Origin: Aliidiomarina haloalkalitolerans
GTDB lineage: Bacteria; Pseudomonadota; Gammaproteobacteria; Enterobacterales; Alteromonadaceae
NCBI RefSeq assembly: GCF_003987315.1
Contig: NZ_PIPI01000010.1
Span: forward strand, 1 to 64,000
Reading direction: 5' to 3'
DNA length: 64,000 nt
Shown: piece by piece, positions 26,592 through 43,449 of the stretch
Position numbering within the stretch: position 1 is the first letter of the stretch
How the letters are laid out: each line of letters starts with the position of its first letter
Program-made: the position numbers and the translations under genes
The notes under the pieces: model-generated
The model's input: the letters and a program-made list of their open reading frames with translations, nothing else
Told to the model about the DNA's origin: nothing
Databases searched by the model: none

Positions 26592-26858
26592 TTACTCCTC
26601 GTCGACTTTATATTTTTTATCGAGCTTGTTCATTTGTGCGATGTACACAAAAATCAGCACGATAAAGGTGTAAATTGCGCCTTGTTGGGCAAACCAAAAG
26701 CCCAACTTAAAGCCGAAGAAGGAGAACTGATTCAGCCAGTCCACCAAAATAATACCGAACCCAAAGGAGACCGTGAACCAGACAGCCAATAGCTTGACCA
26801 TCAACGACAGGTTCTCTTTCCAGTAGGCTTTGGCATGATCTTGCGATTCAAATGCCAT
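26592..26858 (-). CDS. DUF4212 small subunit of sodium/solute symporter
   Basis: The 88-aa protein has two membrane helices (KLLAVWFTVSFGFGIILVDW and YTFIVLIFVYIAQ) and a charged C-terminus. It is the usual partner gene of this symporter class, comparable to YjcH with ActP. The ATG at 26858 is preceded by GGAGGAAA; the open frame to 26948 has no SD. The symporter starts 3 bp after its stop. Confidence 0.9.
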   Translation of the reverse strand: MAFESQDHAKAYWKENLSLMVKLLAVWFTVSFGFGIILVDWLNQFSFFGFKLGFWFAQQGAIYTFIVLIFVYIAQMNKLDKKYKVDEE

Positions 26859-26955
26859 GTGATTTCCTCCACGTATGTTTGTTGGCGCTACTCTTAGTTG
26901 AGTAGTTCTACCTTTTTGTCGATAACAAGCATCGTAGAGAAATGGCAATGAGGAA

Positions 26956-26973
26956 ATTGGACGTTAGTCTAAT
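26956..26973. promoter_or_regulatory. Palindrome ATTGGAC-GTTA-GTCTAAT upstream of symporter operon
   Basis: Seven-bp arms (one mismatch) are separated by 4 bp. Almost the same sequence lies upstream of acs at 42161-42178. It sits about 98 bp before the DUF4212 start, and a -10-like TACGAT (minus strand, 26936-26931) would put its centre near -40. It is likely the binding site of an activator such as one of the two LuxR-type regulators in the window. Confidence 0.55.
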
Positions 26974-27071
26974 AGGTGAATTATTTGTTAAGAAGACCAG
27001 TGGATGGTGTTGGAACAACACCGTTGAAAATCAGTCTTTTGTCCTCAAATAAGTCACTACTTACGCATAAT

Positions 27072-27130
27072 TGTTCGCCATATAGCAAATTATAAATCAT
27101 TTGGCTATAATGTTTGCCAATTAGCGAACA
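27072..27130 (+). promoter_or_regulatory. hipBA promoter with two operators
   Basis: A perfect -10 box TATAAT (27106-27111) lies between two related palindromes: TGTTCGCCATATAGCAAATT (27072-27091) and TGTTTGCCAATTAGCGAACA (27111-27130). Their centres are 39 bp apart. The second covers the expected transcription start near 27118 and the first the -35 region, where no good -35 hexamer is seen. This is the expected layout for autorepression by HipB. Confidence 0.75.
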
Positions 27131-27144
27131 TTAATGGTGGCAAG

Positions 27145-27405
27145 ATGGCAACACGAATCGAGATCGGCAATGCAATTCGCGAGCGTAGAAAAGAATTAGG
27201 ATACACCCAACAAGCTTTGTCAGAGCTCACTGGTGTTCACAAATCAACGATTTCTGAAATCGAAAATGGGCGCTTTAGCGGCTCTTTCGATATCTTCGAA
27301 CGCCTGCTCGACAGTGTCAATTTGCAGTTTGAGGTGTCGAGCAAGACCCATCGTTTACCGGACTGGGACGACATTGATTCCTTGTTTTCGGAGGATGAAT
27401 CATGA
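27145..27405 (+). CDS. hipB: HipB-like antitoxin / XRE-family repressor
   Basis: The 86-aa protein has an XRE helix-turn-helix at about 7-62 (IRERRKELGYTQQALSELTG, then HKSTISEIENGR). A short acidic C-terminal tail (DWDDIDSLFSEDES) follows, which in HipB-type proteins contacts the toxin and makes the antitoxin protease-sensitive. It overlaps hipA by 4 nt, as in other hipBA operons, and probably represses its own promoter through the two palindromes upstream. Confidence 0.88.
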   Translation: MATRIEIGNAIRERRKELGYTQQALSELTGVHKSTISEIENGRFSGSFDIFERLLDSVNLQFEVSSKTHRLPDWDDIDSLFSEDES

Positions 27406-28646
27406 CTCGCACTGCGAATGGGCGACCTGAGTTACCTGCTAAAATCACCCGTATTCAAGTGTGTGTTGGCGAAATAGAAGCGGGGCTGCTCACGCATGGT
27501 TCTGTCCACCATTTTCAGCCTACGCTAGAAGAGCATCACATCTCGCTCACAATGACGAAAAAGGGATTAGATGGCTACGCATCAGGAAGCCTGCATCCCA
27601 TTTTCTCGCAGAACCTACCCGAAGGTTTTAATCGTCGATTTATTGCCGAAAAATTGGCCAGATACGCGAAAGTAAACGACATGTATCTTCTCGCACTACA
27701 AGGCGATCAAGGTATTGGTATGCTGTCCTATCAAAGCGAGATTCAATTACCTGTAATTGAGTCCATAGCACTCAAAGACATCTTGTCTTACAACAGTCCC
27801 GAGCCGTTATTCCCGCAATTGTTAGAGAAGTATTATTTACGCAACTCGTTAGCGGGCGTGCAGCCAAAAGTGAGCGTACCGAGCAGCAAAACGCTAGCGA
27901 CGGATCGAACGGTTGAGCAACGCGACATCATTGTTAAAACGTTTGATGAAGAATTTCCCCTCCTTACCGTGAATGAGTTTGTCTGTATGGAAGCAGCACG
28001 TTGGTGCGGACTTAACCCACCGAAAACCTATTTGGCGGAAAATTTAGAGACTTATGTGGTCGAGCGATTCGACACGTCAAGTAGTGGGGGCCGACTTGGG
28101 TACGAGGACTTCACCACACTGATGAAGAAGCCAAATGACCCCGACGCAAAATACTCAGGTAGCTATGAAGCTCTTTTGCATGCGACGCTTTTGTACACTA
28201 ATAACCAAGCAGAAATCGAGAAAATGTATCGATACATTGTCTTTAACTGTCTTATTGGTAATGGCGATGCTCATCTGAAGAACTTTGCGTTACAGTACCT
28301 GCCAGACATGAGTGATATCTATGTGTCGCCCCCATTCGATATCACGCATACGCTTATTTACGACACGATCGATAATAAGCTAGCCTTAAAATTAGCCCAG
28401 AGTAAATCTTTTCCAGACATGGCAACACTTCTGCGTTTAGCGGAAGGCAAGGGATATCGAATTCGCAAAGCCAGAGAAATCATTGAGCAACTCGCTGAAG
28501 GCATTCTCGATTATCTCAGGCAATCACAAGAAGTTGAGCTTTTTAAGGGCTTGCGTGAATCCATTGAACACTCGGTCGCAAAGGTGATGCTCTCCTCGAC
28601 AGGTACGACAAAATATCGTCATGACCGGATCAAGAAGTATGAATAG
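27402..28646 (+). CDS. hipA: HipA-like serine/threonine kinase toxin
   Basis: The 414-aa protein has the HipA N-terminal domain and kinase core. Features seen are GVQPK with K156, the phosphate loop region, FVCMEAARWCGL, VERFD, the catalytic loop NGDAHLKNFA (D289) and the metal-binding PPFDIT (D313). In E. coli HipA phosphorylates GltX and halts translation; the target here is unknown. All key kinase residues are present, so it looks active. It lies between the symporter operon and the CrbS-like sensor; only about 70 bp without a visible terminator separate it from crbS. Confidence 0.88.
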   Translation: MTRTANGRPELPAKITRIQVCVGEIEAGLLTHGSVHHFQPTLEEHHISLTMTKKGLDGYASGSLHPIFSQNLPEGFNRRFIAEKLARYAKVNDMYLLALQGDQGIGMLSYQSEIQLPVIESIALKDILSYNSPEPLFPQLLEKYYLRNSLAGVQPKVSVPSSKTLATDRTVEQRDIIVKTFDEEFPLLTVNEFVCMEAARWCGLNPPKTYLAENLETYVVERFDTSSSGGRLGYEDFTTLMKKPNDPDAKYSGSYEALLHATLLYTNNQAEIEKMYRYIVFNCLIGNGDAHLKNFALQYLPDMSDIYVSPPFDITHTLIYDTIDNKLALKLAQSKSFPDMATLLRLAEGKGYRIRKAREIIEQLAEGILDYLRQSQEVELFKGLRESIEHSVAKVMLSSTGTTKYRHDRIKKYE

Positions 28647-28716
28647 CGGATTGACGAGCGTCTTCTAATACGCCACAGTGAGCCGTGAATATTCCATCAA
28701 TGACATAACAACCGAC

Positions 28717-31700
28717 ATGATCTGGATTCTGATTGCATCTGCGCTAGGCTACATTGCGCTGCTGTTTCTTATTGCCCTGTGGGGTGAACGCAAACATTCG
28801 TTAGGCTACAAAATTAGCTTGCATCCGTGGGTGTACGGCCTGTCTTTGGCTATTTATTGTACAACCTGGACCTACTATGGTGCGGTTGGAAATGCCATTG
28901 ACGGGGGCTGGAGTTTCTTGCCCATTTTGCTTGGTCCCGTATTGCTGTATGTGTTCGGGTTACCGGTTGTAACCAAACTCGTGGCCGTCAGTAAGCGGCA
29001 AAATATTACGTCTATCGCTGACTTTATCGCCTCGCGTTACGGTAAAAACCACAAAATGGCACTGGTGGTGACGGTTATCGCCGCGGCTGCAGTTATCCCC
29101 TACATTGCACTGCAGCTGAAAGCGGTCGGTATTAGCTTTAATGTCCTCAGTGGTATGCCCCCGGAAGTCACTGGCGGCTCGCTGAAAGAGCTCATTGTCG
29201 CCTTACTGATGGCGGCATTTGCCATCGTTTTTGGTACTCGGCGACTCGATGTCACCGAGTATCGCAGTGGTATGATGCTTGCCATCGCTTTTGAGTCGAC
29301 GGTCAAGCTCGTCGCCTTGCTTGGTGTTGCGGTCTTTGCGTGGGTGGCATTTCGTAGCGACAGCGTCTTGACCATCACGGCCCAGCTTGAAAGCCTGCAG
29401 CTCAGTAGCAGTTGGGGTTGGCAAGCATTAAACGCAGAGTTTTTCATTCAACTGGCGATGGCGGCTGGTGCCATCCTCTGTTTACCGCGTCAGTTCCACG
29501 TTACCGTCGTCGATAACGTCCACTTGTCGCACCTGAAAACAGCCCGTTGGCTGTTTCCGGTGTACTTGCTGCTTACCTCTGCAGCCATTGCCGTTCTGGC
29601 GATCACCAGCACACAGTTACTCGGCAGCTATAACGGCCTGCCTGACGAACGCTCCGTATTTCCATTATTGATTCCTTACGTGAATGGTCAAACTTGGCTC
29701 GCGATTGTGGTCTATATCGGCGGTATATCGGCCGCGACGGCCATGGTCATTGTCGCTACCTTGACGCTCAGCACCATGATCAGTAATGACGTCGTCATGC
29801 CCGTTTGGCTGACCCGCGAAGGTCAGAAAATTCCACAGCCCCACCGTTTTTCACGGCGACTGATTCGCGTCCGTCGCTATGCCATTGTCAGCGTTTTAGT
29901 GCTCGGCTGGGCCTGCTATCACCTTTGGTTTGCGCGTTTAAACTTAGTCAGTATCGGCCTGTTGGCGTTCTCCGTCGTGTTACAACTACTGCCTGCAATT
30001 ATCGGCGGCATGTATTGGCGCCGCGGTCATGCTCAGGGCGTTTACTGGGGCTTGATAGCAGGGATGGTCACCTGGCTAATTGCGATTCTGCTGCCGCTGA
30101 CACAGTCTCCGCCAGAGCAAACCGACACCATTATCACCCACGGTACGCTGATTGCTATGGCGGCCAACATTGCCGGTTACGTTGTCTTTAGCTATTTGTC
30201 GGTGCCCGCTTTGGTCGACAAAATCCAAGCCACCGCATTTGTGCAACCGCGCAGTAGCTATACCAACGTTGGCCCGCAACGACTGCAACAAACGCGCGTC
30301 GCTGACTTAGTCTTATTGATGGAGACCTTTCTTGGCGCCCATCGCTGCGAAGAGCTACTCAAAAGTTACCAACGTCATCGCCAACTTGATCGTGACGGCA
30401 TTGCCGACGCTAAGTTTTCGGACTTCGCCGAACGCGCCATTAGCGGGGTTTTGGGTGCCGCAACCGCCCGCTCGCTCGTCAATGCAGCCATCGAGAATCG
30501 CCAACTGAATCTTGAAGAAGTCGTACATTTCTTTGATGACACCACGCAGGCGCTGCAAACCCAACAGTCGATCATGTACAGCTCGCTGGAGAATCTCGCC
30601 CAAGGTATTTCTGTAGTCGACAAAGACTTGCGCCTCGTGGTCTGGAACCGACGCTACCTCGAGCTTTTTGATTACCCTGACGGTATGGTGCAGCCGGGAC
30701 GTCCAATTGCGGATCTGATTCGTTACAACGCCGAACGTGGCGAATGTGGTGTTGGTGAAGTCGAAGAGTTGGTGAACAAGCGCTTGCACTACATGCAAAT
30801 TGGCTCACCACATCGCTTTATTCGTCGTCGCTCCGACGGGCGCGTCATTGAAATGGTCGGTAATCCGCTGCCTAACGGTGGGTTCGTTACCAGTTTTACC
30901 GACGTCACCGAGCACATTGAAACGCAGCAGGCACTCGAAGATGCGAATATCGACCTCGAAGCGCGGATTCGCAGTCGCACCGACGAAGTGCGAGAAATTA
31001 ACCGTGAGCTGACCGAGGAAATCGATCGGCGGCGGGAAATCGAAATCGCATTGCAAGCAGCAAAAGCTGAAGCGGAAAATGCCAACGCCAGTAAAACGCG
31101 TTTCTTGGCATTAGCTAGTCACGACATTTTGCAGCCGCTGAACGCCGCGCGGCTCTACTTGTCGGCAATTGACCACGAGCGACTCGATGGCAAGAATCAG
31201 GGCTTAATTCACAAAGTCGATAATGCGCTCGACTCCACTGAGCATCTACTTTCGGCACTGTTGTCTATTGCCAAAATGGAACAAGGGGCGATGCAGCCGC
31301 AACTCAAGCACATTGACCTGAATACCATTCTCGGGCCATTAGTACCTGAGTATGCCGTACTGGCAGAACAAAAAGACCTGCAGTTTAAAGCGCGACTGCG
31401 CAATTTAACCGTCTATACCGACCCCACTTATTTGCGGCGAATTGTGCAGAACTTCCTGTCAAATGCGGTGAAGTACACCGAAAGCGGTCGTGTTTTATTA
31501 ACCGTTCGCAAACATGGCGACCATGCCGAACTCGCGGTTTGGGACAGCGGCCCGGGTATTCCAGAGCAAAAACACGAAGAAGTTTTCGAGGCCTTTATTC
31601 GTTTGCATCAAGGTTCGATTAGCGGCGTGGGTTTAGGTCTGAGTGTCGCCAAACGCATGGCTGAACAGCTAAACTGCCCATTGGAGATTAAATCTGCACT

Positions 31701-32190
31701 CGGTCAAGGCAGTCGCTTCTCCGTGCTCGTGCCTCTCGGCTCAGCCGCTATGGTCATTCCGCGTGTGCGGCCTGAACGCTCAAATCAGGCTTACGACGGT
31801 CTGAAAATTCTCTGTGTTGATGACGAACCCGAGAACCTTAAAGCTCTAGAAGCGCTGCTGCATAAGTGGGACTGCCATCCGATTCAGTTCACCACCCCGC
31901 AGGAAGCACTAACATGGGCAGCAGAAAACCCTGCGCCGGACGGCGTGTTACTGGACTATCAACTAGGCGAACACGGCGACGGCTTAACGCTCTGGCAAGC
32001 ATTGAGTGACATTTGGCCAAACCGCGTACCGGGAGCCTTGGTGACCGCAGTCAGAGACCCAGATTTAAAAGCAGAAACGCGTAAACTCGGTCTGCAGTTC
32101 TTGGCCAAGCCGGTGAAACCAGCCCAGCTCAAAGCTCTGATGCAACATATGCAGCGCCAGAAGGAGACGCAATCATGTTCCGGCTCCTAA
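28717..32190 (+). CDS. crbS: CrbS-like sensor: SSF-STAC-PAS-histidine kinase-receiver
   Basis: The 1157-aa hybrid sensor contains an SSF symporter-like domain with about 13 helices (about 1-500) and a STAC linker (about 526-595). A PAS domain (from about 620; ENLAQGISVVDKDLRLVVWN), a coiled coil, and HisKA with H802 in SHDILQPLNAARL follow. HATPase with GPGIP and GVGLGLSVAK, and a receiver with D1080, complete it. CrbS/MxtR-type sensors control acetyl-CoA synthetase and acetate use, which fits acs, the symporter and the dehydrogenase nearby. The start is uncertain: ATG 28717 gives a family-like N-terminus; GTG 28678 is open too, and neither has a clear SD. hipBA lies directly upstream. Confidence 0.8.
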   Translation: MIWILIASALGYIALLFLIALWGERKHSLGYKISLHPWVYGLSLAIYCTTWTYYGAVGNAIDGGWSFLPILLGPVLLYVFGLPVVTKLVAVSKRQNITSIADFIASRYGKNHKMALVVTVIAAAAVIPYIALQLKAVGISFNVLSGMPPEVTGGSLKELIVALLMAAFAIVFGTRRLDVTEYRSGMMLAIAFESTVKLVALLGVAVFAWVAFRSDSVLTITAQLESLQLSSSWGWQALNAEFFIQLAMAAGAILCLPRQFHVTVVDNVHLSHLKTARWLFPVYLLLTSAAIAVLAITSTQLLGSYNGLPDERSVFPLLIPYVNGQTWLAIVVYIGGISAATAMVIVATLTLSTMISNDVVMPVWLTREGQKIPQPHRFSRRLIRVRRYAIVSVLVLGWACYHLWFARLNLVSIGLLAFSVVLQLLPAIIGGMYWRRGHAQGVYWGLIAGMVTWLIAILLPLTQSPPEQTDTIITHGTLIAMAANIAGYVVFSYLSVPALVDKIQATAFVQPRSSYTNVGPQRLQQTRVADLVLLMETFLGAHRCEELLKSYQRHRQLDRDGIADAKFSDFAERAISGVLGAATARSLVNAAIENRQLNLEEVVHFFDDTTQALQTQQSIMYSSLENLAQGISVVDKDLRLVVWNRRYLELFDYPDGMVQPGRPIADLIRYNAERGECGVGEVEELVNKRLHYMQIGSPHRFIRRRSDGRVIEMVGNPLPNGGFVTSFTDVTEHIETQQALEDANIDLEARIRSRTDEVREINRELTEEIDRRREIEIALQAAKAEAENANASKTRFLALASHDILQPLNAARLYLSAIDHERLDGKNQGLIHKVDNALDSTEHLLSALLSIAKMEQGAMQPQLKHIDLNTILGPLVPEYAVLAEQKDLQFKARLRNLTVYTDPTYLRRIVQNFLSNAVKYTESGRVLLTVRKHGDHAELAVWDSGPGIPEQKHEEVFEAFIRLHQGSISGVGLGLSVAKRMAEQLNCPLEIKSALGQGSRFSVLVPLGSAAMVIPRVRPERSNQAYDGLKILCVDDEPENLKALEALLHKWDCHPIQFTTPQEALTWAAENPAPDGVLLDYQLGEHGDGLTLWQALSDIWPNRVPGALVTAVRDPDLKAETRKLGLQFLAKPVKPAQLKALMQHMQRQKETQSCSGS

Positions 32191-32843
32191 TTGCTGACGA
32201 TCACCCGCTTTATCGTGACGCACTCGCTGATGTGGTCCACCGGCATTTTCCACAAGCAACCTTACTCGACGCCGCAAATCTGAGTGAGGTTTTTACCCGA
32301 TTAGCTGACGAGCCCGCGGTTGACTTAGTGCTTCTCGATCTCAATATGCCCGGCATGAATGGCTTAGAGGGGGTCTCGCAACTTCTTGCCAAATACCCAA
32401 CGTTAGCCGTCGCCATGCTCTCCGCAGAAGACGATAAGCATGTTGTTCTTGAAGCTATGGCGTTAGGCTGCATTGGTTATATTTCCAAGGCGAGCGAGCG
32501 CTCGGAATTAGCACAAGCGATTGAACAAATTCTTGCTGGGAATATCTATTTGCCCGCTGGCAGTTTTCGTGCCAGCACAACAAACTTGTCGGCCAAGACC
32601 AGTCCGCCAGCGCTTGAGCAGCCCATCGTGTCGCTTGCGGATCTTACCAAACAGCAAATTCGGGTTTTACGCGAAATGGTTAACGGTGCTTCCAATAAGC
32701 AAATTGCCTTTGCCTTACACGTGAGCGAAGCGACGGTTAAATCTCATGTCTCCGCCATTTTCCGTAAACTTAAGGTGAGCAATCGTGTGCAGGCGATTTT
32801 AATCGCGAAAGCCGCGGATTTCTCTGCCTATTTACCCGATTAA
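32175..32843 (+). CDS. LuxR-family response regulator, partner of CrbS-like kinase
   Basis: The 222-aa NarL/LuxR-type regulator has a receiver domain (D55 in LLDLNMPGMNG, K around 104 in YISKAS) and a C-terminal LuxR helix-turn-helix (LTKQQIRVLREMVNGASNKQ, then EATVKSHVSAIFRKL). It overlaps the sensor gene by 16 nt, so it is presumably its cognate regulator. It is clearly related to the second regulator at 39.5-40.1 kb, which is linked to acs. The stop overlaps the converging nahK stop. Confidence 0.85.
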   Translation: MFRLLIADDHPLYRDALADVVHRHFPQATLLDAANLSEVFTRLADEPAVDLVLLDLNMPGMNGLEGVSQLLAKYPTLAVAMLSAEDDKHVVLEAMALGCIGYISKASERSELAQAIEQILAGNIYLPAGSFRASTTNLSAKTSPPALEQPIVSLADLTKQQIRVLREMVNGASNKQIAFALHVSEATVKSHVSAIFRKLKVSNRVQAILIAKAADFSAYLPD

Positions 32844-34993
32844 CGAGATTTGCTCCGACTAAACAAAGTCCGCAAGGTCATTCGCAGTTGTAATGGTCTT
32901 ACCGGCTTATGCAGCAGTTCAAAACCGAGTTCTCGAGCTTGGTCTTGCAGTGCTTGGCTATGATTGGCCGTGAGTAATAGCACCGCTGGCTGTGCGGATG
33001 AGAGCCGCTGTTGGAGCAGCTCGGTGACGACATCGGTGCCGAAATCTGCGCCTAAATGATAGTCGACAATCACCGCCCGCAATTCGCGATCTTGCCAAAA
33101 ATCCTGCGCCACCAATTGCTCGCGATTCTGCGCCAAAACCACGGTATAACCCCAGCCGCTGAGGATACTTTCGAGCGCTTGGCAAATCGCCGGATCATTA
33201 TCGATGACGCCAATGAGACCCTGCTCTTGAATCGTGTTCGGAATAACTGACGGTTCATCTCTTCTTGCTTGTCGGTCGCTGCTCTGATCTGCTTGCTGCC
33301 GTGGTACCTGAATAGAAAACATCGAGCCACGCCCAACCTTCGACTTCACATCCACCACATGATCAAGCAGCCGCGCTAGACGTTCGACAATTGCTAATCC
33401 AAGACCTAAGCCACCAGCATGCTCATGCTCTGCTGCTGGCAAACGATGAAACTCTCGAAAAATACTTTTTCGCTGGTCTGCAGCGATACCCGGTCCCGTA
33501 TCGAGCACCTGAATTTCGAGCTGAGTGCCGCGGCGACGACAACCCAATAAAACCTCACCACCCGCAGGCGTGTAGCGGTAAGCGTTACTAATGAAGTTAC
33601 GTAAAATACGGGTCAGTAATGCACTGTCGGTGATTATCCAGTCACGACTAGACTGCAAGCGCAGGCGAATGCCTTTACTGGCCAGCATCGCCTCAGCTTC
33701 ATCTGCGAGTGGCTTTAATACGGCATCGACCGGAATGACCTCAACCTGAGCTGCGAGCGCACCGGCATCTAATTTGGACAAATCAACCAGCGTGCGTAGT
33801 AAGTCGCCCACGTCATCCAATGACCGCGCCGCTTTTTGTGCCAGTCCACGCACCTCGGGGCTTAACGACTGGTCAAGCATCGCGCCATTAAACAAACGAG
33901 CAGCGTTCAGTGGTTGCAGAACATCATGACTGACTGCGGCAAGAAATTGCGATTTCGATGCGTTCGCAATTTCTGCTTCGTTTTTGGCTTGGCTGAGTGC
34001 GGCTGTGCGTTCTTGCACCCGCTTTTCAAGTAATATATTCGCTTGGCGCAACGCCTCTGAGGTGCGTTTTCGCTCGGTAATATCGCGATTCAACACAAAG
34101 AAACCTAAAACTTTTCCGGCGCTATCGCGGTTCGGCACATAGGACTTGAGTAAATGCCGCGACACGCCCTGAATATTGGTTTCCGTAATTTCGAACACCA
34201 CATTGTCACCATTAAGCACCTCGGCTATATAAGGCTGCAATCGCTGATAGCCTGATTCACCATGGATTTCAGTAATGTGCTGTTGGAGAATTTCTTGTCC
34301 CGGTTGTAAATAAAACTCTGCATAGCCGCGATTGACAAATTCATATATGCCGTTCGCTGACAAGTAGGCGATCATCGCAGGTACGTTATCGGTAATTGCA
34401 CGCAGCCAGCGCTCACTTTCGGCTAACGACGCAGCATAGGCGACGTGGGTTGATATATCAGTTAAGGCCAACAAATAACCCGCATCTGGCAAAGGATGGC
34501 GTTCAGCGGCAATGGTTCGACCGTCCAGTAACTTCTGTTCACTTCGTGTTTGGCTGAAAATCTGCTGTGGTTGTGACAAGGCACTCCTCATGAGGCAAGC
34601 TTGGAAGTCATTGGTTAGCCCAAGTTGACGGCGACTTAGCCCAGTCAAATCGAGTAATTTTGCATTCCAAACTTCAAGTTGCCCTTGCCCATTCACCAAC
34701 GCGACACCTTGCGATAGGTTGTCGACCGTGTTCTGCAACAGCAGCATTTTCTCAGCGAGGGCTTTCTGTTTACTCACATCGGCACTGTGCTTCAACTCTC
34801 GGGTGCGCTCACGAACTTGTTCTGCTAATACTGCCGCATGTTGAAAGGCGGTAAACGGCGAATGGACACCATTGAGCTGCGGCGAACTGCCTTGCTCAAT
34901 GCGTTGCATCAGGGCTTGGTTAATCCGTTCGAGCCGAGCAATTTTTGCTTCCCGCTCAGCAAGTTGATGCCGCAGCTCAGTTTCAGACGCCAT
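32840..34993 (-). CDS. nahK: NahK-like PAS hybrid histidine kinase
   Basis: The 717-aa soluble protein has an N-terminal coiled coil, two PAS domains (about 85-195 and 200-315), HisKA with H356 in VSHDVLQPLNAARLF, HATPase (GPGIAADQ and GLGLGLAIVERLA) and a C-terminal receiver with VDYHLGADFG. It overlaps the nosP stop by 11 nt. In Pseudomonas aeruginosa, NosP controls the hybrid kinase NahK from the same operon. The ATG at 34993 follows GAGGTGAGG; a TTG at 35008 is open too. Its H-box is nearly the same as that of the CrbS-like sensor. Confidence 0.82.
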   Translation of the reverse strand: MASETELRHQLAEREAKIARLERINQALMQRIEQGSSPQLNGVHSPFTAFQHAAVLAEQVRERTRELKHSADVSKQKALAEKMLLLQNTVDNLSQGVALVNGQGQLEVWNAKLLDLTGLSRRQLGLTNDFQACLMRSALSQPQQIFSQTRSEQKLLDGRTIAAERHPLPDAGYLLALTDISTHVAYAASLAESERWLRAITDNVPAMIAYLSANGIYEFVNRGYAEFYLQPGQEILQQHITEIHGESGYQRLQPYIAEVLNGDNVVFEITETNIQGVSRHLLKSYVPNRDSAGKVLGFFVLNRDITERKRTSEALRQANILLEKRVQERTAALSQAKNEAEIANASKSQFLAAVSHDVLQPLNAARLFNGAMLDQSLSPEVRGLAQKAARSLDDVGDLLRTLVDLSKLDAGALAAQVEVIPVDAVLKPLADEAEAMLASKGIRLRLQSSRDWIITDSALLTRILRNFISNAYRYTPAGGEVLLGCRRRGTQLEIQVLDTGPGIAADQRKSIFREFHRLPAAEHEHAGGLGLGLAIVERLARLLDHVVDVKSKVGRGSMFSIQVPRQQADQSSDRQARRDEPSVIPNTIQEQGLIGVIDNDPAICQALESILSGWGYTVVLAQNREQLVAQDFWQDRELRAVIVDYHLGADFGTDVVTELLQQRLSSAQPAVLLLTANHSQALQDQARELGFELLHKPVRPLQLRMTLRTLFSRSKSR

Positions 34994-36122
34994 CCTCACC
35001 TCGCCCAATCACCACGCCCGTAAAGGTCTGATTGATATGAATGCCGTTAAAATGCTCGCCGTAAGTGTTAAAACCGAGTACTTGATGGCGGCGATAGAAT
35101 GCGGATGCAGCGGCAACTTCATTGCGCTGTTCACATTCCAACCGCCGCAAAACGCAGTCACAGCCAATCGTTACCAATGGCTCGCCTATGCTTTTTTCGA
35201 TCTCAGCAAAGCGCTGTTCTAAATCCGGTAAAATCGGTTGCGTCGCCATAGCAGTGAGCACCGCACCTTCACCTACCGCGCAATAAAAAGTTAAGCTGCC
35301 ATCGTCGTTGACGCGCTGAATCGAACGAACGAAATATTCATTACCCATGCGTACCGCCAACGGATGCATGGCAAAGACCGTCGCGTCGAGCTCGGTCAGC
35401 GCACATCCCACATACTGAGCATAAGCTTCTGCGGCGGGCTCAGCGTTCAACTCGTAGACTGTCCGCGTATCGTCGCTCGCAGCGGTGACGACAAATTTTT
35501 CCGTTCGCGGCTCCATGTGATGGGTACTAAACACCTCGAACGGCAGCGCAGTGGTAAATATCAGCAGCACTGCCGCATTGGTGTGGAAACTACCGTTGAA
35601 ATAGATATAAGTATCGGTGAGTTGATTATCATCACCGGCGGAACCGCCAAAATGCGGGATTTTCCCCAGTGCCGTTTGTAACGAGAAGAGCGCCACTTCC
35701 TCTTGCGCCGACAGTCCATCGAACAAGGTCAAGGCAAAGCTTTGCCGTTGCTGTGCGCCATACACAGGCTCAGATAACAATAAATTATCGATAAGTTCCT
35801 GCGCTTGCAACAAATCAAACTCCGTCAGATTTTGAATCGGGCCAACCGCAACACGGAAATCACTCGCGTGAAAACCGAGCGCGACAATGTGACCGCGCGC
35901 ATAACCTGCGGGTGTCAATTCGCCAGCAGTCGTGCAGCCGCTTTTCGGTACCTGTGGAAACTGCTCTTCCAATGCGGCAGCAAGTTCCGGCAGATCATAT
36001 TCTGCCGAACAAAAGAAGAGAATAAAGCCAAGCTTATTATTCCCGAGCTGTGTCGCCAATTCCTCGGCAGCGGTTGCCGAATCTTTTGCTGCCGACATAG
36101 CGCTGACAATCGATTTGTCCAT
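34983..36122 (-). CDS. nosP: NosP-like FIST-domain nitric oxide sensor
   Basis: The 379-aa cytoplasmic protein consists of FIST_N (about 25-215; CTTAGELTPAGYARGHIVAL and LFDGLSAQEE) and FIST_C (about 220-365; the ending reads LGFNTYGEHFNGIHINQTFT). FIST proteins of this type, encoded directly before a NahK-like hybrid kinase, are the heme-based NO sensors called NosP. The name rests on domain plus operon; heme and NO binding are not shown by the sequence itself. No membrane segment or signal peptide is seen. Confidence 0.82.
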   Translation of the reverse strand: MDKSIVSAMSAAKDSATAAEELATQLGNNKLGFILFFCSAEYDLPELAAALEEQFPQVPKSGCTTAGELTPAGYARGHIVALGFHASDFRVAVGPIQNLTEFDLLQAQELIDNLLLSEPVYGAQQRQSFALTLFDGLSAQEEVALFSLQTALGKIPHFGGSAGDDNQLTDTYIYFNGSFHTNAAVLLIFTTALPFEVFSTHHMEPRTEKFVVTAASDDTRTVYELNAEPAAEAYAQYVGCALTELDATVFAMHPLAVRMGNEYFVRSIQRVNDDGSLTFYCAVGEGAVLTAMATQPILPDLEQRFAEIEKSIGEPLVTIGCDCVLRRLECEQRNEVAAASAFYRRHQVLGFNTYGEHFNGIHINQTFTGVVIGRGEDGV

Positions 36123-36180
36123 CTTGTACGTTTCCCAACGAAGTGACTCTACCCTTCATACTACCCTGAACGTCTGCCGA

Positions 36181-36207
36181 AAAAAACGGGAGCTCAAAGC
36201 TCCCGTT
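36181..36207 (-). terminator. Terminator of aldehyde dehydrogenase gene
   Basis: Minus-strand stem AACGGGAGC / GCTCCCGTT with loop TTTGA is followed by TTTT. It lies 40 bp after the dehydrogenase stop and insulates nosP-nahK from it. Confidence 0.9.
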
Positions 36208-36248
36208 GTCGACGTCCTTGTTCCTTCTCTCCATGCTTGCCAATTGGC

Positions 36249-37769
36249 TTAGAAAAAGCCCATTGGATTGGTGTCGTAACTCACCAACATATTCTTCGTT
36301 TGCTGATAATGCGACAACATCATCTTGTGGTTTTCACGGCCAACACCGGACTTCTTGTAACCACCAAACGCTGCATGCGCTGGGTAGTGGTGATAGCAGT
36401 TGGTCCACACCCGACCGGCTTGAATACCGCGGCCCATGCGATAAGCGCGATTCATATCACGCGTCCATAAACCCGCACCTAAACCAAACTCAGAATCGTT
36501 GGCAATCTCTAGTGCGTCCGCTTCGTCCTTGAACGTGGTCACCGAAATCACCGGCCCAAAAATTTCTTCTTGGAACACGCGCATGCTGTTGTTGCCTTTA
36601 ATCAAGGTTGGCTGAATGTAGTAGCCATTGGCAAGGTCATTGTCGAGTTGCTCTTTGTCACCGCCCATGAGGATTTCTGCACCCTCACCGCGACCAATGT
36701 CAAAGTAGCTCATGATTTTATCAAACTGCTGCTGCGAAGCCTGAGCACCGACCATTACATCCGTGTCGAGCGGATTACCGCGTTTGATTTTCTTGGTACG
36801 TTCAATAACTAACTCAATAAACTTGTCGTAGATACTTTCGTGCACTAACAAGCGCGACGGGCAGGTACAGACCTCGCCTTGGTTAAAGAACGCCAAGACC
36901 ACGCCTTCAATACACTTCTCTAAATAGCTATCTTCGTAATTAAACACGTCTTCGAAGTAAATATTCGGCGACTTACCACCAAGCTCGACAGTAGACGGAA
37001 TAATGTTTTCCGCTGCACACTTAAGAATATGAGAGCCGGTTGGCGTTGAACCTGTGAAGGCAATCTTCGCGATTCGCTTACTCGTCGCCAACGCTTCACC
37101 GGCTTCTTTACCAAAGCCATTAACGATGTTCAGTACACCGTCCGGGAGCAAGTCACCGACCAGTTCAATAAACTTCAGAATTGACCACGGAGTTTGTTCT
37201 GCAGGCTTCAATACGACGCAGTTGCCCGTTGCCAGTGCCGGCGCAAGTTTCCATGCGGCCATCAATAATGGGAAGTTCCACGGAATAATCTGGCCAACAA
37301 CGCCAAGCGGTTCATGATAATGATAGGCGACGGTGTTTTGGTCAATTTCGCCAATCGAACCTTCTTGGGCACGAATAGTACCGGCAAAATAACGAAAGTG
37401 ATCGACAGCTAAAGGAACGTCCGCGTTTAACGTTTCGCGAACCGCTTTGCCGTTATCCCAAGTTTCCGCTACCGCGATCGATTCGAGATTAGCTTCCAAG
37501 CAGTCAGCGATTTTCAGCAGGATATTGGAGCGCTCGGTAACGGATGTTTTACCCCATGCTTCTTTTGCTGCATGAGCCGCGTCCAAAGCTAGATCGACAT
37601 CTTCCGCAGTAGAGCGTGCAATCTTACAGAATGCCTTGCCGGTGACCGGCGATACATTATCGAAATATTGGCCTTTGACCGGTGCAACCCATTTGCCACC
37701 GATATAATTTTCATACTGATCTTTGACGGTTACTTTTGAATCCGGATGACCGGGATTAGCGTAAATCAT
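36249..37769 (-). CDS. exaC: NAD-dependent aldehyde dehydrogenase (ExaC/AldB type)
   Basis: The 506-aa enzyme has the ALDH motifs [20 protein letters not shown], the cofactor loop [12 protein letters not shown], the glutamate motif [10 protein letters not shown], and the catalytic cysteine in [16 protein letters not shown]. The C-terminus [10 protein letters not shown] and the length match the ExaC/AldB acetaldehyde dehydrogenase group. It would oxidise acetaldehyde to acetate, feeding acs. The ATG at 37769 ([12 protein letters not shown]) follows AGGTGG; the frame to 37841 is open but unsupported. It is divergent from selO. Confidence 0.88.
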
Positions 37770-37890
37770 TGCATCCACCTCTGTGATTTCATTGTATGAT
37801 AATCTAGTACCTGTCCATGCTATGCTGCGAGTGACAATCACGGCTATTCCTCATCAGCATGAAAAAATTCATACTTTAGTTGGAGATTTC

Positions 37891-39453
37891 ATGACCGCAT
37901 TCACCGTGCAACATTCTCTTTTCGACTTAGGCTCGTTCTTTACTCAACCGGCCTCACCGAAAGCAGTACAAGCACCCCAGTGGATTGCGTTCAATCAGAC
38001 GCTCGCTGAACAATTACAATTGCCTGCTGAATTGCACGCGACTCAAACTGGGCTCAGTGTTTGGTCGGGTAATCACGTGCCAGAATGGGCAAAACCGCGC
38101 GCACATGCCTATGCGGGGCATCAGTTTGGTAATCTCGTGCCACAACTTGGTGATGGCCGTGCGCTGCTCCTCGCTGAAATCATTGATAAACATGGTAAGC
38201 ATTGGGATGTTCAGCTGAAAGGGGCTGGGCCTACTCCGTTTTCGCGGGGCGGTGATGGTCGCTCAGCAATTGGTCCGGTGTTACGTGAATATCTGCTTAG
38301 TGAAAGCATGTTTGTCCTGGGAGTGCCGACCACCCGGGCGCTGGCTGCCGTCGCCAGTGGCGAATTGGTTTTTCGTGACCAAGGTGGCGTTCCGGGCGCA
38401 GTATTTACCCGCGTTGCGAGCAGTCATTTGCGCATTGGTAGCTTTCAGTTTGCCTCGTTGCACGGTGGTGCTGAGAAAGTTAAACAGCTCGCTGACTATG
38501 CCATTGCCCGCCACTATCCGGAACTTCAAGACCGCACAGGAATCGAGCGCTACCTCGCCTTTTTACATGCGGTCGCCATGAAGCAAGCCGAGTTGATCAG
38601 TCAGTGGCTGCGCGTCGGCTTTATTCACGGGGTAATGAACACCGACAACACGTCAATTTGCGGCGAAACCATCGATTACGGCCCTGCGGCGTTTCTCGAC
38701 AGCTATCATCCGCAAAAAGTCTTTAGCTCGATTGACCGCCGGGGACGTTATGCCTTTAGCAGTCAACCTGCGATCGCCCAATGGAACCTCGCGCGCTTGG
38801 CGGAGTGCCTTTTGCCGTTGCTCACCGTTGCGCCAGAAAGTAATGACGAAGCCAGCGCAAAGGCAGCGCGTGAAAACGCCATTGCCGTTGCGACCCGTGT
38901 CTTAGATGAGTATTCGGCGCGTGCACAAGCACTATGGCTTAGTACGATGGCAAGCAAGATGGGTATTGAACACGCACAGGCTGAAGACGACACATTGATT
39001 CAAGATTTTCTCGTTGTATTGCAAACCCATGACGTCGACTACACTCAGGCATTCTGGCAACTTGCCAATGAACTTATCGAAAACTCTGGAGAATCTGCAT
39101 CGGGGGAGTCTGTACTCGTCGAACCAACTGCGCCAGCCGCCAGCCTCTTTGCCAAGCCGGATGATTACCTCGCTTGGCGCCAGCGCTGGTTGCAGCGACT
39201 CAGCGATAATCAGCGTTCAGTGCACGACACCGTCAATGCCATGCGCAGCGTAAATCCCGCACTCATTCCGCGCAATCATCGCATTGCCGAAGCGATTACC
39301 GAAGTTGAGGAAAGCGGCAGTCTAAAGCGTTTCTACACCCTGCTTAATGCGTGGAAAACACCCTATCACATGCCAACCAGCGAGCTAGAACTTGAACTCT
39401 ATCAGGCTCCGTCCAAAGCCGAGGAAGTACAACGAACCTTTTGTGGGACTTAA
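37891..39453 (+). CDS. selO: Protein adenylyltransferase SelO (YdiU family)
   Basis: This 520-aa pseudokinase-fold enzyme transfers AMP from ATP to protein Ser/Thr/Tyr and is linked to oxidative stress. It has AYAGHQFGNLVPQLGDGRA, the RGGDGRSAIGPVLREYL motif, GVPTTRALAAV and HGVMNTDNTSICGETIDYG with the metal ligands. The C-terminal end carries Cys (RTFCGT) where some homologues have selenocysteine. The open frame begins at 37783, but ATG 37891 with GGAG 9 nt before it gives the conserved start. Confidence 0.93.
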   Translation: MTAFTVQHSLFDLGSFFTQPASPKAVQAPQWIAFNQTLAEQLQLPAELHATQTGLSVWSGNHVPEWAKPRAHAYAGHQFGNLVPQLGDGRALLLAEIIDKHGKHWDVQLKGAGPTPFSRGGDGRSAIGPVLREYLLSESMFVLGVPTTRALAAVASGELVFRDQGGVPGAVFTRVASSHLRIGSFQFASLHGGAEKVKQLADYAIARHYPELQDRTGIERYLAFLHAVAMKQAELISQWLRVGFIHGVMNTDNTSICGETIDYGPAAFLDSYHPQKVFSSIDRRGRYAFSSQPAIAQWNLARLAECLLPLLTVAPESNDEASAKAARENAIAVATRVLDEYSARAQALWLSTMASKMGIEHAQAEDDTLIQDFLVVLQTHDVDYTQAFWQLANELIENSGESASGESVLVEPTAPAASLFAKPDDYLAWRQRWLQRLSDNQRSVHDTVNAMRSVNPALIPRNHRIAEAITEVEESGSLKRFYTLLNAWKTPYHMPTSELELELYQAPSKAEEVQRTFCGT

Positions 39454-39464
39454 AGGTCTAGCTC

Positions 39465-40118
39465 TTAAGTTTCTGCTTCAGGCGGTGAAAGCTGCAGGCG
39501 CTCGGCTAACAGTACCGCTTGGGTGCGGCTGTATACGTCGAGCTTACGGAAAATTGCCGTCATGTGGGCCTTCACGGTCGCTTCGGTAATGCCAAGTTGA
39601 TAGGCGATCTGCTTATTCAGTAAGCCTTCGTGCACGTAATACAGCACCCGATACTGTTGTGGGGTTAAATCGGCCACTTTCTCGGCGAGCTCTTTGTCCT
39701 CTTGGCTGACATCAACGATTTGTTCAGCCATGCCCTCCGGCAACCATTCATCGCCATCGAGAATTGCAGCAATTGCATTCGCAATGTCGGCCGACGAAAG
39801 TGATTTTGGAATAAAACCGAGCGCACCGAAGCCCATGCAGCGTGAAATTACCTGCAAGTCTTCCGACCCAGAAATCACTGCTACCGGTAACAATGGATAG
39901 TCGTTGCGAATGCGGATTAAGCCATAAAGGTCGCCAGCGCCGGGCATATGTAAGTCGAGCAACAACAAGTCAATGTCGTCGTCTTGGCTTAAAGCGTCAA
40001 GAGTCGAGTCGAGGGTATCGGCCTCGCGAATATCGAGGTCGGCAAAATGACTCGCGAGGGCCCCCTGCAGGGCCTCGCGAAATAACGGATGATCATCAGC
40101 AATTAGTAATCGGGTCAT
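39465..40118 (-). CDS. LuxR-family response regulator downstream of acs
   Basis: The 217-aa protein has a receiver domain (D55 in LLDLHMPGAGD, K in FIPKSLS) and a LuxR helix-turn-helix (LTPQQYRVLYYVHEGLLNKQ, EATVKAHMTAIFRKL). It follows acs by 40 bp on the same strand and could be in its operon. Regulators of this ErdR/CrbR type activate acs in pseudomonads and vibrios. It has no adjacent kinase; the CrbS-like and NahK-like kinases in this window are candidates. A choice between this gene and the one at 32.2 kb as true CrbR cannot be made from sequence alone. Confidence 0.85.
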   Translation of the reverse strand: MTRLLIADDHPLFREALQGALASHFADLDIREADTLDSTLDALSQDDDIDLLLLDLHMPGAGDLYGLIRIRNDYPLLPVAVISGSEDLQVISRCMGFGALGFIPKSLSSADIANAIAAILDGDEWLPEGMAEQIVDVSQEDKELAEKVADLTPQQYRVLYYVHEGLLNKQIAYQLGITEATVKAHMTAIFRKLDVYSRTQAVLLAERLQLSPPEAET

Positions 40119-40158
40119 AGCACTTTTTGTGGAAGCGCTACGTGGTCGCTTCCTATCC

Positions 40159-42102
40159 TTAGCGGTTTAATCGATTCTCAATTAACGAATCTACCACACT
40201 CGGATCGGCGAGCGTAGAGGTATCACCCAAATTACTGTACTCATTGCTGGCAATTTTGCGCAGGATACGACGCATAATCTTACCAGAGCGAGTTTTTGGT
40301 AGGCCTGGAGCCCACTGAATATGGTCTGGTGTCGCAATCGGGCTAAGCTCTTTACGAACCCACTGCACTAATGTTTTGCGCAGCTCGTCATTCGCTTCAA
40401 CGCCATCGACCACAGTCACATAAACATAAATACCTTGGCCTTTCAGGTCATGCGGGTAACCGACTACGGCAGCTTCCGCAACTGCTTCATGAGCAACCAA
40501 TGCGCTTTCAATTTCCGCTGTACCAAGGCGATGCCCTGACACGTTCAGCACATCGTCGACACGACCAGTAATCCAGAAATGACCATCTTCATCAACACGT
40601 GCACCGTCACCGGTGAAATACACGTTCTTGTAGGTGCTGAAGTAGGTCTGCTCAAAGCGCTCATGGTCGTTCCATAACGTGCGTGCCTGACCTGGCCATG
40701 AGTCTTCGATAATCAAGTTGCCTTCCGTCGCGCCAGTAAGCTTTTTGCCCTCGTTATCGACTAACGCCGGCTTCACACCGAAGAACGGTAACATTGCCGA
40801 ACCTGGCTTCATATCGGTTGCCGCCGGGAACGGTGCAATCAGAATACCGCCCGTCTCAGTTTGCCACCAAGTATCAACAATCGGGCATTTGCTGTTACCG
40901 ATAATCTTGTAATACCACTCCCACGCTTCTGGGTTAATTGGCTCACCCACCGAGCCCATAATCCGCAGCGAGTCGCGTTTACTACCTTTCGCTGCAGCAT
41001 CACCTTTGGCCATCAAGGCACGAATCGCAGTCGGTGCGGTATACAGGATATTCACTTGATGCTTATCGACCACCTTACCAATGCGCGACACGTCCGGATA
41101 AGTTGGCACACCTTCAAACATAAGCGTGGTGGTGCCGTTTGCGAGCGGGCCGTAAACAATATAGCTGTGACCGGTAATCCAACCCACATCGGCCGCACAC
41201 CAGTAAACGTCGTCTTCTTTAATATCGAAGACATATTCGTGCGTCATCGACGCATACACCATGTAACCACCGGTGGTATGCACGACGCCTTTTGGCTTGC
41301 CGGTTGACCCCGAGGTGTAAAGAATAAATAGTGGATCTTCGGCTTGCATCACTTCCGGTGGACAGTCGGCGTCACAATCGCCAATCAATTCGTGCCACCA
41401 AACATCACGACCAGCGTGCATGTCAAAATCAACGTCGGTGTGCTTCAGAACAACCACGTGCTCAATGGTTGGGCAGGCGTCGCCGCTTAAGGCTTCGTCG
41501 ACGTTTGGCTTTAAAGCAACGCCTTTACCGCCACGACGGCCTTCGTTTGAGGTGATAATCACTTTCGCACCACAGTCATTCACTCGGTCTGCAATCGCGT
41601 GCGGCGAGAAGCCAGCAAAAATCACCGAATGCACCGCACCTAAGCGGGCGCAAGCAAGCATGGCATAGGCCGCTTCGGGTACCATCGGCATATAAATAGC
41701 GACGCGGTCGCCTTTCTTCACACCGAGTTTCTTCAGACCGTTAGCAAAACGCGCCACTTCTTCATGGAGTTCACGGAAAGTAATGTGCTTTTGCACATCG
41801 ACTTCGTCACCTTCCCAAATGATTGCGGTCTTGTCGCCGCGCTCACTCAAGTGACGATCAACACAGTTATAGCAAGCGTTTAGGGTGCCGTCGGCATACC
41901 ACTGAATGTCTAGCTCGCCCGGCGCAAAGTTAGTTTTCTTAACTTGGCTATAAGGGCTGAACCAGCTAATGCGCTTACCTTCTTCTGCCCAAAACGCTTC
42001 TGGGTCAGCAATGGACTGCTGATACTTCTCCGCATAAGTTTGCGGATTCAGCCGTGCAGATGCTTTCACTGCTTCAGGCATTGGATAACTCAGTGCTGAC
42101 AT
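40159..42102 (-). CDS. acs: Acetyl-CoA synthetase Acs
   Basis: The 647-aa AMP-forming ligase converts acetate, ATP and CoA to acetyl-CoA. It has the P-loop-like [19 protein letters not shown], the conserved [10 protein letters not shown] and [11 protein letters not shown]. The C-terminal lysine, in [15 protein letters not shown], is the residue acetylated by Pat-type enzymes in other bacteria. AGGAGG lies 8 nt before the ATG. Upstream, a palindrome like that of the symporter operon probably carries its regulation. Confidence 0.97.
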
Positions 42103-42160
42103 ATTTCATTCCTCCTAAATTTTATAGCCCCATTTGTACTGATTTCGCTGGCTGAAACCT

Positions 42161-42178
42161 ATTAGACCATAGTCTAGA
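42161..42178. promoter_or_regulatory. Palindrome ATTAGAC-CATA-GTCTAGA between acs and dcaP
   Basis: Arms of 7 bp (outer two positions imperfect) with a 4-bp spacer match the element at 26956-26973 as ATTRGAC-N2-TA-GTCTAR. It lies about 60 bp before acs and about 110 bp before the divergent porin gene, so it could serve both. A weak -10-like TACAAA on the minus strand (42138-42133) would put it about -43 from an acs start. Confidence 0.6.
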
Positions 42179-42288
42179 TTGACCCAATGCGCATCTTCCC
42201 GAATGCTTAAAAGCACGCACAAACAGCAGTAGCTGTGCACTCAAGGCCAGTTCAGAGCCGTTAATGAATACATGATGAGGAAGCTGAC

Positions 42289-43449
42289 ATGCAAGGTTTT
42301 AACAAAGCGCTGACCGCAACCGCAGTCGCCGCAGCAATCAGCGCTGGTAGCTTAGTCACGATTGCGAACGCAAGTGCTGAAACTGAATTTAGTTACGGTG
42401 GTTACATCAAGCTCGACGCCATGATCACCCGCACAGACAGTGGCTCTTTGCCATCTGGCAGTATCGGTCGGGACTTCTACATTCCAGGCTTAACCCCCAT
42501 TGGTGGCGACAGTAATACTTACACAGACTTCCATGCTCGGGATACTCGTTTCTACTTCCGTGCCAACCAAACGTTGGAGAACGGTGAGACCATTTCAGGC
42601 TATGTTGAGTTCGATTTTCTCGGCACCCCAGGTGGCGACAAACGCGTAACCAACTCCTATTCACCACGGGTTCGTCACGCCTATATTCAGTATAAAAATT
42701 GGCTTGCAGGTCAGTTCTGGAGTAACTTCCAAGACACCGCAATCATCCCTGAAGCCGTTGATTTTGTTGGTGCGCCAGACGGGATTGTCTTTAACCGTCA
42801 ACCACAAATTCGGTACAGCAATAATGGCTTCTCCGTGTCCGTTGAAGCACCAGAAACCACAGTAACACCGAACCTCGGTGGTACTGCTCGGGTAACGACC
42901 GGTGACACAGCAATGCCAGATTTGACCGCTCGCTACCAAAACAAAGTCGACAATATTCATTACAGTGTCGCCGGTATTTACCGTCGCCTTGAATACCGTC
43001 AGGACGGTGTCGACAGCACCGAAACCGGCTGGGGCGTGAACTTAACCACCAAAATTGACATCGGCCCACATGATATTCGTGCAGGCTTTGTCCATGGCGA
43101 AGGTATCGGTCGCTATGTTGGTATTAACTCGGTGAACGACGCTGTTGTCAATGAGGCTCTCAACTTGGACGCGCTCGGTTACACCGGGGTGACGCTGGCG
43201 TACCGTCATGTTTGGAGCGAACAGTACCGCACGAACCTGATTTTTGCGCGCGGCCGCTTTGAAGATAAACGCGAACTAACTGGCTTGAATGCCAATGACC
43301 ACACGCAACGCATTGCTGCCAACCTCATGTATCAAGCCAATGAGCGCATGGTTGTCGGTTTCGAAGTTAGCCGTGCAACCCGTGAATTACTTTCGGGTCA
43401 AGACGGTAACCTCGACCGCATTCAGGTGAGTGTGCAGTACGCATTCTAA
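42289..43449 (+). CDS. DcaP-like outer-membrane porin
   Basis: The 386-aa protein has a signal peptide (cleavage near ANASA-ET). A beta-barrel follows: alternating strands, FYIPGLTPIG, DFHARDTRFYFRANQTLENG, and the C-terminal aromatic residue in QVSVQYAF needed for BAM-dependent insertion. The motif order resembles DcaP-type trimeric porins, which take up dicarboxylates and other organic acids. Being divergent from acs across a shared palindrome suggests a role in acid uptake, by inference. A terminator follows. Confidence 0.82.
   Translation: MQGFNKALTATAVAAAISAGSLVTIANASAETEFSYGGYIKLDAMITRTDSGSLPSGSIGRDFYIPGLTPIGGDSNTYTDFHARDTRFYFRANQTLENGETISGYVEFDFLGTPGGDKRVTNSYSPRVRHAYIQYKNWLAGQFWSNFQDTAIIPEAVDFVGAPDGIVFNRQPQIRYSNNGFSVSVEAPETTVTPNLGGTARVTTGDTAMPDLTARYQNKVDNIHYSVAGIYRRLEYRQDGVDSTETGWGVNLTTKIDIGPHDIRAGFVHGEGIGRYVGINSVNDAVVNEALNLDALGYTGVTLAYRHVWSEQYRTNLIFARGRFEDKRELTGLNANDHTQRIAANLMYQANERMVVGFEVSRATRELLSGQDGNLDRIQVSVQYAF

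Follow-up and report, generated by a model that had tools for sequence, protein, structure and literature searches.

ACTU-type repeats before the symporter operon and acs of Aliidiomarina haloalkalitolerans, and their probable CrbR-type regulator

In a 64,000-nucleotide stretch of the Aliidiomarina haloalkalitolerans genome (positions 1 to 64,000 of contig NZ_PIPI01000010.1; hereafter designated the window), we found that the two inverted repeats preceding a sodium/solute symporter operon and the acetate–CoA ligase gene acs are, judged by their letters, copies of the known ACTU motif. These repeats very probably act as activation sites of a CrbR-type regulator, namely RR1, the LuxR-type response regulator encoded next to acs, which would activate the symporter operon and acs and probably also the porin gene. 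The motif, pointed out in an earlier note on this DNA, is not new: Sepulveda and Lupas described it in 2017 as the ACTU motif (PMC5715377), and their accessible text reports an imperfect inverted repeat that occurs, across 31 gamma-proteobacteria, in 91 of the 112 promoters of acs, actP, and two further genes, is placed at −52 to −36 of Pseudomonas fluorescens acs, and is required there for CrbR-dependent activation. The basic finding is an ordinary one, a known motif in the expected place, and a modest extension of a known system. It shows a characterised acetate switch carried into a marine lineage, singles out one regulator from three look-alikes, and names testable new targets, that is, the porin, gltA–sdhC, and a cstA-like gene.

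Table 1 Features of the acetate cluster and the related regulator on another contig
Feature	Position	Strand	Remarks
cNMP-binding/CBS/nucleotidyltransferase protein	22900..24741	−	downstream of symporter
VC_2705-family sodium/solute symporter, large subunit (TIGR03648)	24882..26588	−	
Symporter small subunit, VC_2705-type (TIGR03647)	26592..26858	−	
−10-like box TACGAT, symporter	26931..26936	−	putative; 19 bases after motif
ACTU-type inverted repeat, symporter operon side	26956..26973	−	ATTGGACGTTAGTCTAAT as listed; ATTAGACTAACGTCCAAT towards symS
CrbS-like hybrid histidine kinase, 1170 aa	28678..32190	+	possibly transporter-like N-terminus; PAS_7, HisKA, HATPase_c, REC
RR2, second LuxR-type regulator	32175..32843	+	unlikely motif owner
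RR1, LuxR-type response regulator, acs-adjacent	39465..40118	−	best CrbR candidate
acs, acetate–CoA ligase	40159..42102	−	
−10-like box TACAAA, acs	42133..42138	−	putative; 22 bases after motif
ACTU-type inverted repeat, acs side, facing porin too	42161..42178	−	ATTAGACCATAGTCTAGA as listed; TCTAGACTATGGTCTAAT towards acs
−35-like TTGACC towards porin	42179..42184	+	putative; abutting motif
DcaP-type outer-membrane porin (PF19577)	42289..43449	+	
RR3, ErdR-like regulator	G000:C27:40126-40740		different contig

Both palindromes pointed out in the earlier note are present (Table 1), the symporter-side copy matching the consensus proposed there without mismatch and the acs-side copy with two mismatches; compared letter by letter by eye, they are identical at 13 of 18 positions, one fewer than the 14 counted before. 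The similar spacing to −10-like boxes that had also been remarked on holds for the boxes as read by eye, and the distances to these putative boxes would fit the placement of ACTU before the −35 region at both acs and the symporter. The start of the symporter gene is taken as the ATG at 26858, on the basis of homologues and the ribosome-binding site, versus the TTG at 26948 in the list of open reading frames.

The statistical standing of the motif depends on how it is described. With the loose consensus, the window contained 6 matches at up to three mismatches versus 5.36 expected, and the genome scan proposed in the earlier note gave, at up to two mismatches in the organism's own genome (2.68 Mb), 16 places as well as 16 for the control. 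Since these counts lie near chance in both window and genome, a scan run in that way lends the claim no support, and the loose consensus was set aside as evidence. Two matrices were built from published sites, one from the 20 seventeen-letter P. fluorescens sites in Table 4 of PMC5715377, as given in its accessible text, and the other from only the four experimentally supported sites. Over the whole window on both strands, the 20-site matrix placed the symporter site first (17.1) and the acs site second (16.8), and the four-site matrix gave the same two sites as the top two (17.1 and 15.5). Among 100 Markov windows, the highest top and second scores were 19.0 and 17.2 with the 20-site matrix and 17.8 and 14.2 with the four-site matrix; the bare scores are only moderately unusual, as the null overlaps them. 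The telling point is that the highest-ranking pair of places in the window under the published matrices is the pair named in advance.

A third matrix of 33 sites comprised the four published sites and 29 hand-picked ones, which come from other genera and include some symporter sites, with Idiomarina and Aliidiomarina rows excluded and with some repeats kept and many dropped. It scored the acs site at 21.2 bits and the symporter site at 18.3 bits, against null maxima of 18.07 and 14.84 in 60 windows, but is partly circular, because all 29 sites were chosen as lying within two mismatches of a pattern written after the genus sites had been seen; the 20-site and four-site matrices, whose null overlaps the scores more, serve as the independent check on it. 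In the organism's own genome, an asymmetric pattern at up to one mismatch had 23 matches versus 17 in its reversed control, so that most single matches there mean little, and several of them fall within long open reading frames. We do not claim as sites the matches upstream of a gene read by eye as antiporter-like (G000:C24:193661), next to one read by eye as deaminase-like (C24:773), or elsewhere.

Conservation within the genus provides the strongest support for the motif beyond chance. The motif stands before both acs and the symporter in all 15 genus genomes that carry both genes, and in alignments it stands out against less conserved flanks. Its acs copy is TCTAGACTATGGTCTAAT in 14 of these genomes and TCTAGACCTTGGTCTAAT in G008; the symporter copy is more variable, differing from the consensus of the earlier note at 0 to 3 positions (shuffle p up to 0.035), the sites of G004, G009, G010, and G011 reaching three mismatches (p 0.005 to 0.035). 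A sharper pattern, searched for exact matches in 16 genus genomes (G016 left out), gave 40 matches, 30 of them at acs or the symporter, versus 23 for its reversed control; among the remaining 10, two lie between gltA and sdhC (G011 and G012) and one before the cstA-like gene (G004). Moreover, the matches listed at 13 bits or more with the 33-site matrix for 14 genus loci (216 kb; the best eight per locus) were all at the acs and symporter promoters or, in G009 and G010, adjoining that of the symporter. Tandem ACTU copies were observed before acs in G008 (L093 17408-17445) and before the symporter in G007 (L088 4438-4470).

Among genomes outside the genus of known ErdR status, 10 of the 11 that encode an ErdR-like protein have an acs site (p ≤0.013) and 8 of 9 a symporter site (p ≤0.02), versus 0 of 2 without such a protein in each case, by shuffle tests that, like those for the gltA–sdhC and cstA-like sites below, use the partly circular 33-site matrix and preserve single-base composition only. 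One genome, G017, counts against the association, having an ErdR-like protein and lacking the acs site; outside this tally, G019 carries both sites and G020 neither. The symporter small subunit was found in 28 and acs in 33 of 38 genomes, the own genome included. Of the 80 named loci located by way of the regulator, acs is in the same stretch in 65, and a divergent porin accompanies acs and the regulator in 25, including loci of Aliidiomarina, Idiomarina, Pseudoalteromonas, Alteromonas, Xanthomonas, and Stenotrophomonas; many loci contain a CrbS-like gene and the symporter as well. In this set, the Pseudomonas, Stutzerimonas, and Shewanella loci lack acs in the stretch.

The cluster also encodes a putative sensor. 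The CrbS-like kinase has PAS, HisKA, HATPase, and REC domains as CrbS does (SLC5/STAC kinases), and the profile of its N-terminus matches a solved 'histidine kinase' chain (10ed_A, residues 5-501, E 2.8e-73). Pfam at E 0.001 gave no transporter domain in the protein, and profile comparison of the N-terminus with the symporter by hhalign yielded a weak match (59.7%, 125 columns). Close to RR3 there is another CrbS-like gene (34% identity; L101 11183-16240, on G000:C27). Downstream of the symporter, the cNMP-binding/CBS/nucleotidyltransferase protein would be the equivalent of PFLU5625, a member of the P. fluorescens regulon that the accessible text of PMC5715377 annotates only as 'putative signal-transduction protein'. 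Two segments vary in the genus. The genes for RR2, NahK, NosP, and ExaC form an insert (32175-37841) that none of the 14 further genus loci examined contains. Here (27146-28646) and in G005, a HipB/HipA-like pair separates the symporter-side motif from the CrbS-like gene; the 13 further genus loci examined are without it, and in 9 of them the symporter and kinase genes diverge across the motif.

That the resemblance of the repeats is mere chance, the two being unrelated palindromes, would agree with the lack of enrichment of the loose consensus and with the only moderately unusual bare scores under a published-site matrix, but is contradicted by the conservation in every genus genome with both genes and by the ranking of the two sites at the head of the window; we give this reading practically no weight. 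A genuine site of the CrbR/ErdR kind that ties acetate uptake to activation, as the earlier note had supposed, is supported by the published ACTU form, the top ranks, and the conservation. Which regulator owns it is a matter of choosing among three proteins of the same genome, which scored 231 (RR3), 220–221 (RR1), and 177 bits (RR2) with an ErdR model, the next match having 101 bits. The cut-off of the NCBIfam ErdR family (NF041830, 390 bits) was of no help as a discriminator, RR1 lying below it and no protein reaching it in any of the 148 genomes of the order.

RR1, which has REC and GerE domains, is present in 15 of 17 genus genomes, namely those with acs and the symporter. G013 and G014 have neither these genes nor RR1, and the phyletic argument stands on these two RR1-less genomes, perhaps a single loss event. 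RR1 is 77% identical to an Aliidiomarina protein, 74% to Idiomarina proteins, and 51% to a Pseudomonas californiensis relative, and in the tree clusters (support 97/90) with regulators that mostly adjoin acs. In its second helix-turn-helix stretch, which we take to be the recognition helix, RR1 (EAT-V-KAH-M-TAI) has the pattern EAT-[VI]-KAH-x-TAI in common with the three aligned proteins that hit the ErdR model best. The earlier note had proposed as binders both LuxR-type regulators lying between the two sites, a proposal that stands for RR1, given its co-occurrence with acs and the symporter, and falls for RR2. The latter does lie between the sites, directly after the kinase gene, and does match the ErdR model, but its gene is part of the insert that the 14 other genus clusters lack while keeping both sites, it adjoins the NahK and NosP genes, and the tree places it apart from the CrbR-like clade with a 39% match from G004, both on long branches. 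With RR1 as the query, the other genomes gave no match resembling RR2 except at 39% in G004 and G011; binding of the motif by RR2 (helix stretch EATVKSHVSAI) appears very improbable. Somewhat less remote, though still unlikely, is that RR3 is the true CrbR controlling both sites, as its ErdR score is the highest of the genome, a CrbS-like gene is close by, and the tree places it, not RR1, on the side holding the Pseudomonas and Shewanella regulators, by a weak fork (85/90, drawn open) and on a long branch. RR3-like matches (42-46%) occur in 15 of 17 genus genomes, but the sites are kept in G009, which has no RR3-like protein (RR1 as the query gave no further match at E 1e-25), and in G004, which has the 39% match only. 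Conversely, G013 and G014 possess an RR3-like protein without RR1 and without the sites, their target genes being gone and their gltA–sdhC core lost, and the helix residues of RR3 (ETTIKQHVSAI) differ from those of RR1 and the best ErdR-model hits.

Control of the porin, which the earlier note had advanced with a 'perhaps', is plausible from the sequence. The acs-side site read towards the porin is third in the window (16.2, 33-site matrix), and the abutting −35-like element has TTGA in 14 of 15 genus genomes and TTGC in G008. The porin–acs gap of the genus has one site, or two in G008. For 42 such gaps, shuffles preserving single-base composition only led us to expect 0.38 matches at up to one mismatch on both strands, and eight Alteromonas-type loci (L240, L241, L245, L246, L248, L249, L255, and L271) have a second site of this quality 93-99 bases before the porin, separate from the acs-side site. 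These separate sites support porin control, short of proof. At L243 and L244 the porin-side site has two mismatches; Pseudoalteromonas loci have two-mismatch sites only, and in Xanthomonas-type loci the sites are at least 250 bases away.

ACTU-like sites were also found beyond the window. Between gltA and sdhC (family models above their cut-offs for citrate synthase and succinate dehydrogenase), the own genome has a site at G000:C1:759768-759783 (relatives, L185-L200), and all 14 RR1-bearing genus genomes of the sample, which did not include G016, have its core ACTTTAGTC (shuffle p ≤0.03); the core is absent from G013 and G014 (p 0.5 and 0.88), in which the adjacent promoter-like blocks remain. 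In the 28 of 57 non-genus family genomes with the best sdhC matches, a site within one mismatch was found in 8 versus 0.35 expected; in five of these 8 it precedes gltA by 104-132 bases (by 120 in the own genome), and the remaining 20 genomes had weaker matches or none. A cstA-like gene, a loose name in view of its 230 bits versus a family cut-off of 1188, occurs in 13 of 17 genus genomes; 11 of these 13 (G006 and G003 being the two without) have an ACTU-like site before it (p ≤0.02; G000:C27:27176-27193 and relatives L339-L351), exact to the pattern in G004, G007, G009, and G010. In the own genome, the gltA–sdhC and cstA sites score 15.1 and 13.5 with the 33-site matrix, and the null expectation per genome is about 8 matches at 15 bits and about 16 at 13.5; by themselves these scores prove nothing, and the case rests on conservation. 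Precedent for targets in the TCA cycle comes from Pseudomonas aeruginosa, where ErdR affects icd and idh according to the accessible text of PMC9927353, and in the accessible texts from our literature search neither gltA, sdh, nor cstA nor any porin is named as a target of the ACTU motif. We regard as evenly balanced the proposal that one CrbR-type regulator coordinates the DcaP-type porin, the symporter, acs, the CstA-like transporter, and entry into the TCA cycle at gltA–sdhC. If true, the whole route from the outer membrane to citrate would be switched together, including the entry of acetyl-CoA at the divergent gltA–sdhC promoters.

Presumably, the CrbS-like kinase senses the acetate state and phosphorylates RR1, a dimer of which would bind the repeat directly ahead of the −35 region, or overlapping with it, and recruit sigma-70 RNA polymerase to the symporter operon and acs; the acs-side site would probably serve the divergent porin as well. 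The most likely reading is that a single regulator jointly turns on acetate uptake and activation, probably with the neighbouring porin. Collectively, the acetate regulon of the earlier note may be considered right in its idea and in one of its regulators, RR1, and mistaken as to RR2 and the count of shared positions; the motif itself was known before.

The role of such regulators differs among the systems studied. According to the accessible text of PMC9927353, ErdR of P. aeruginosa in its phosphorylated form bound to 13 of the 15 promoters identified, and deletion of erdR raised most of the targets tested; a Pseudomonas putida study (PMC8402216, accessible text) names the same motif and reports that ErdR gave no shift of the acsA-I promoter, which lacks it. 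The rises in P. aeruginosa and the absent shift in P. putida imply that the regulator is not an activator everywhere. RR1 resembles ErdR as a LuxR-type response regulator, and direct binding to promoters of acetate-use and TCA-cycle genes, described for ErdR in these two papers, would by likeness extend to RR1; it differs in scoring below the NCBIfam ErdR cut-off, and many P. aeruginosa targets behave as repressed. Within the accessible texts, the literature search found no paper in which Idiomarina is named together with CrbR or the ACTU motif, and the accessible text of PMC5715377 leaves gltA, succinate dehydrogenase, and cstA unnamed and mentions a porin only in the title of a reference. 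With the ACTU and CrbS/R (MxtR/ErdR) regulon described there, the present system shares an imperfect repeat with a GAC-N4-GTC core before acs and the acetate symporter, its apparent placement before the promoter, and a CrbR-type regulator; it differs in its two-subunit symporter of the VC_2705 type, in a regulator gene located next to acs, and in a site shared with a DcaP-type porin.
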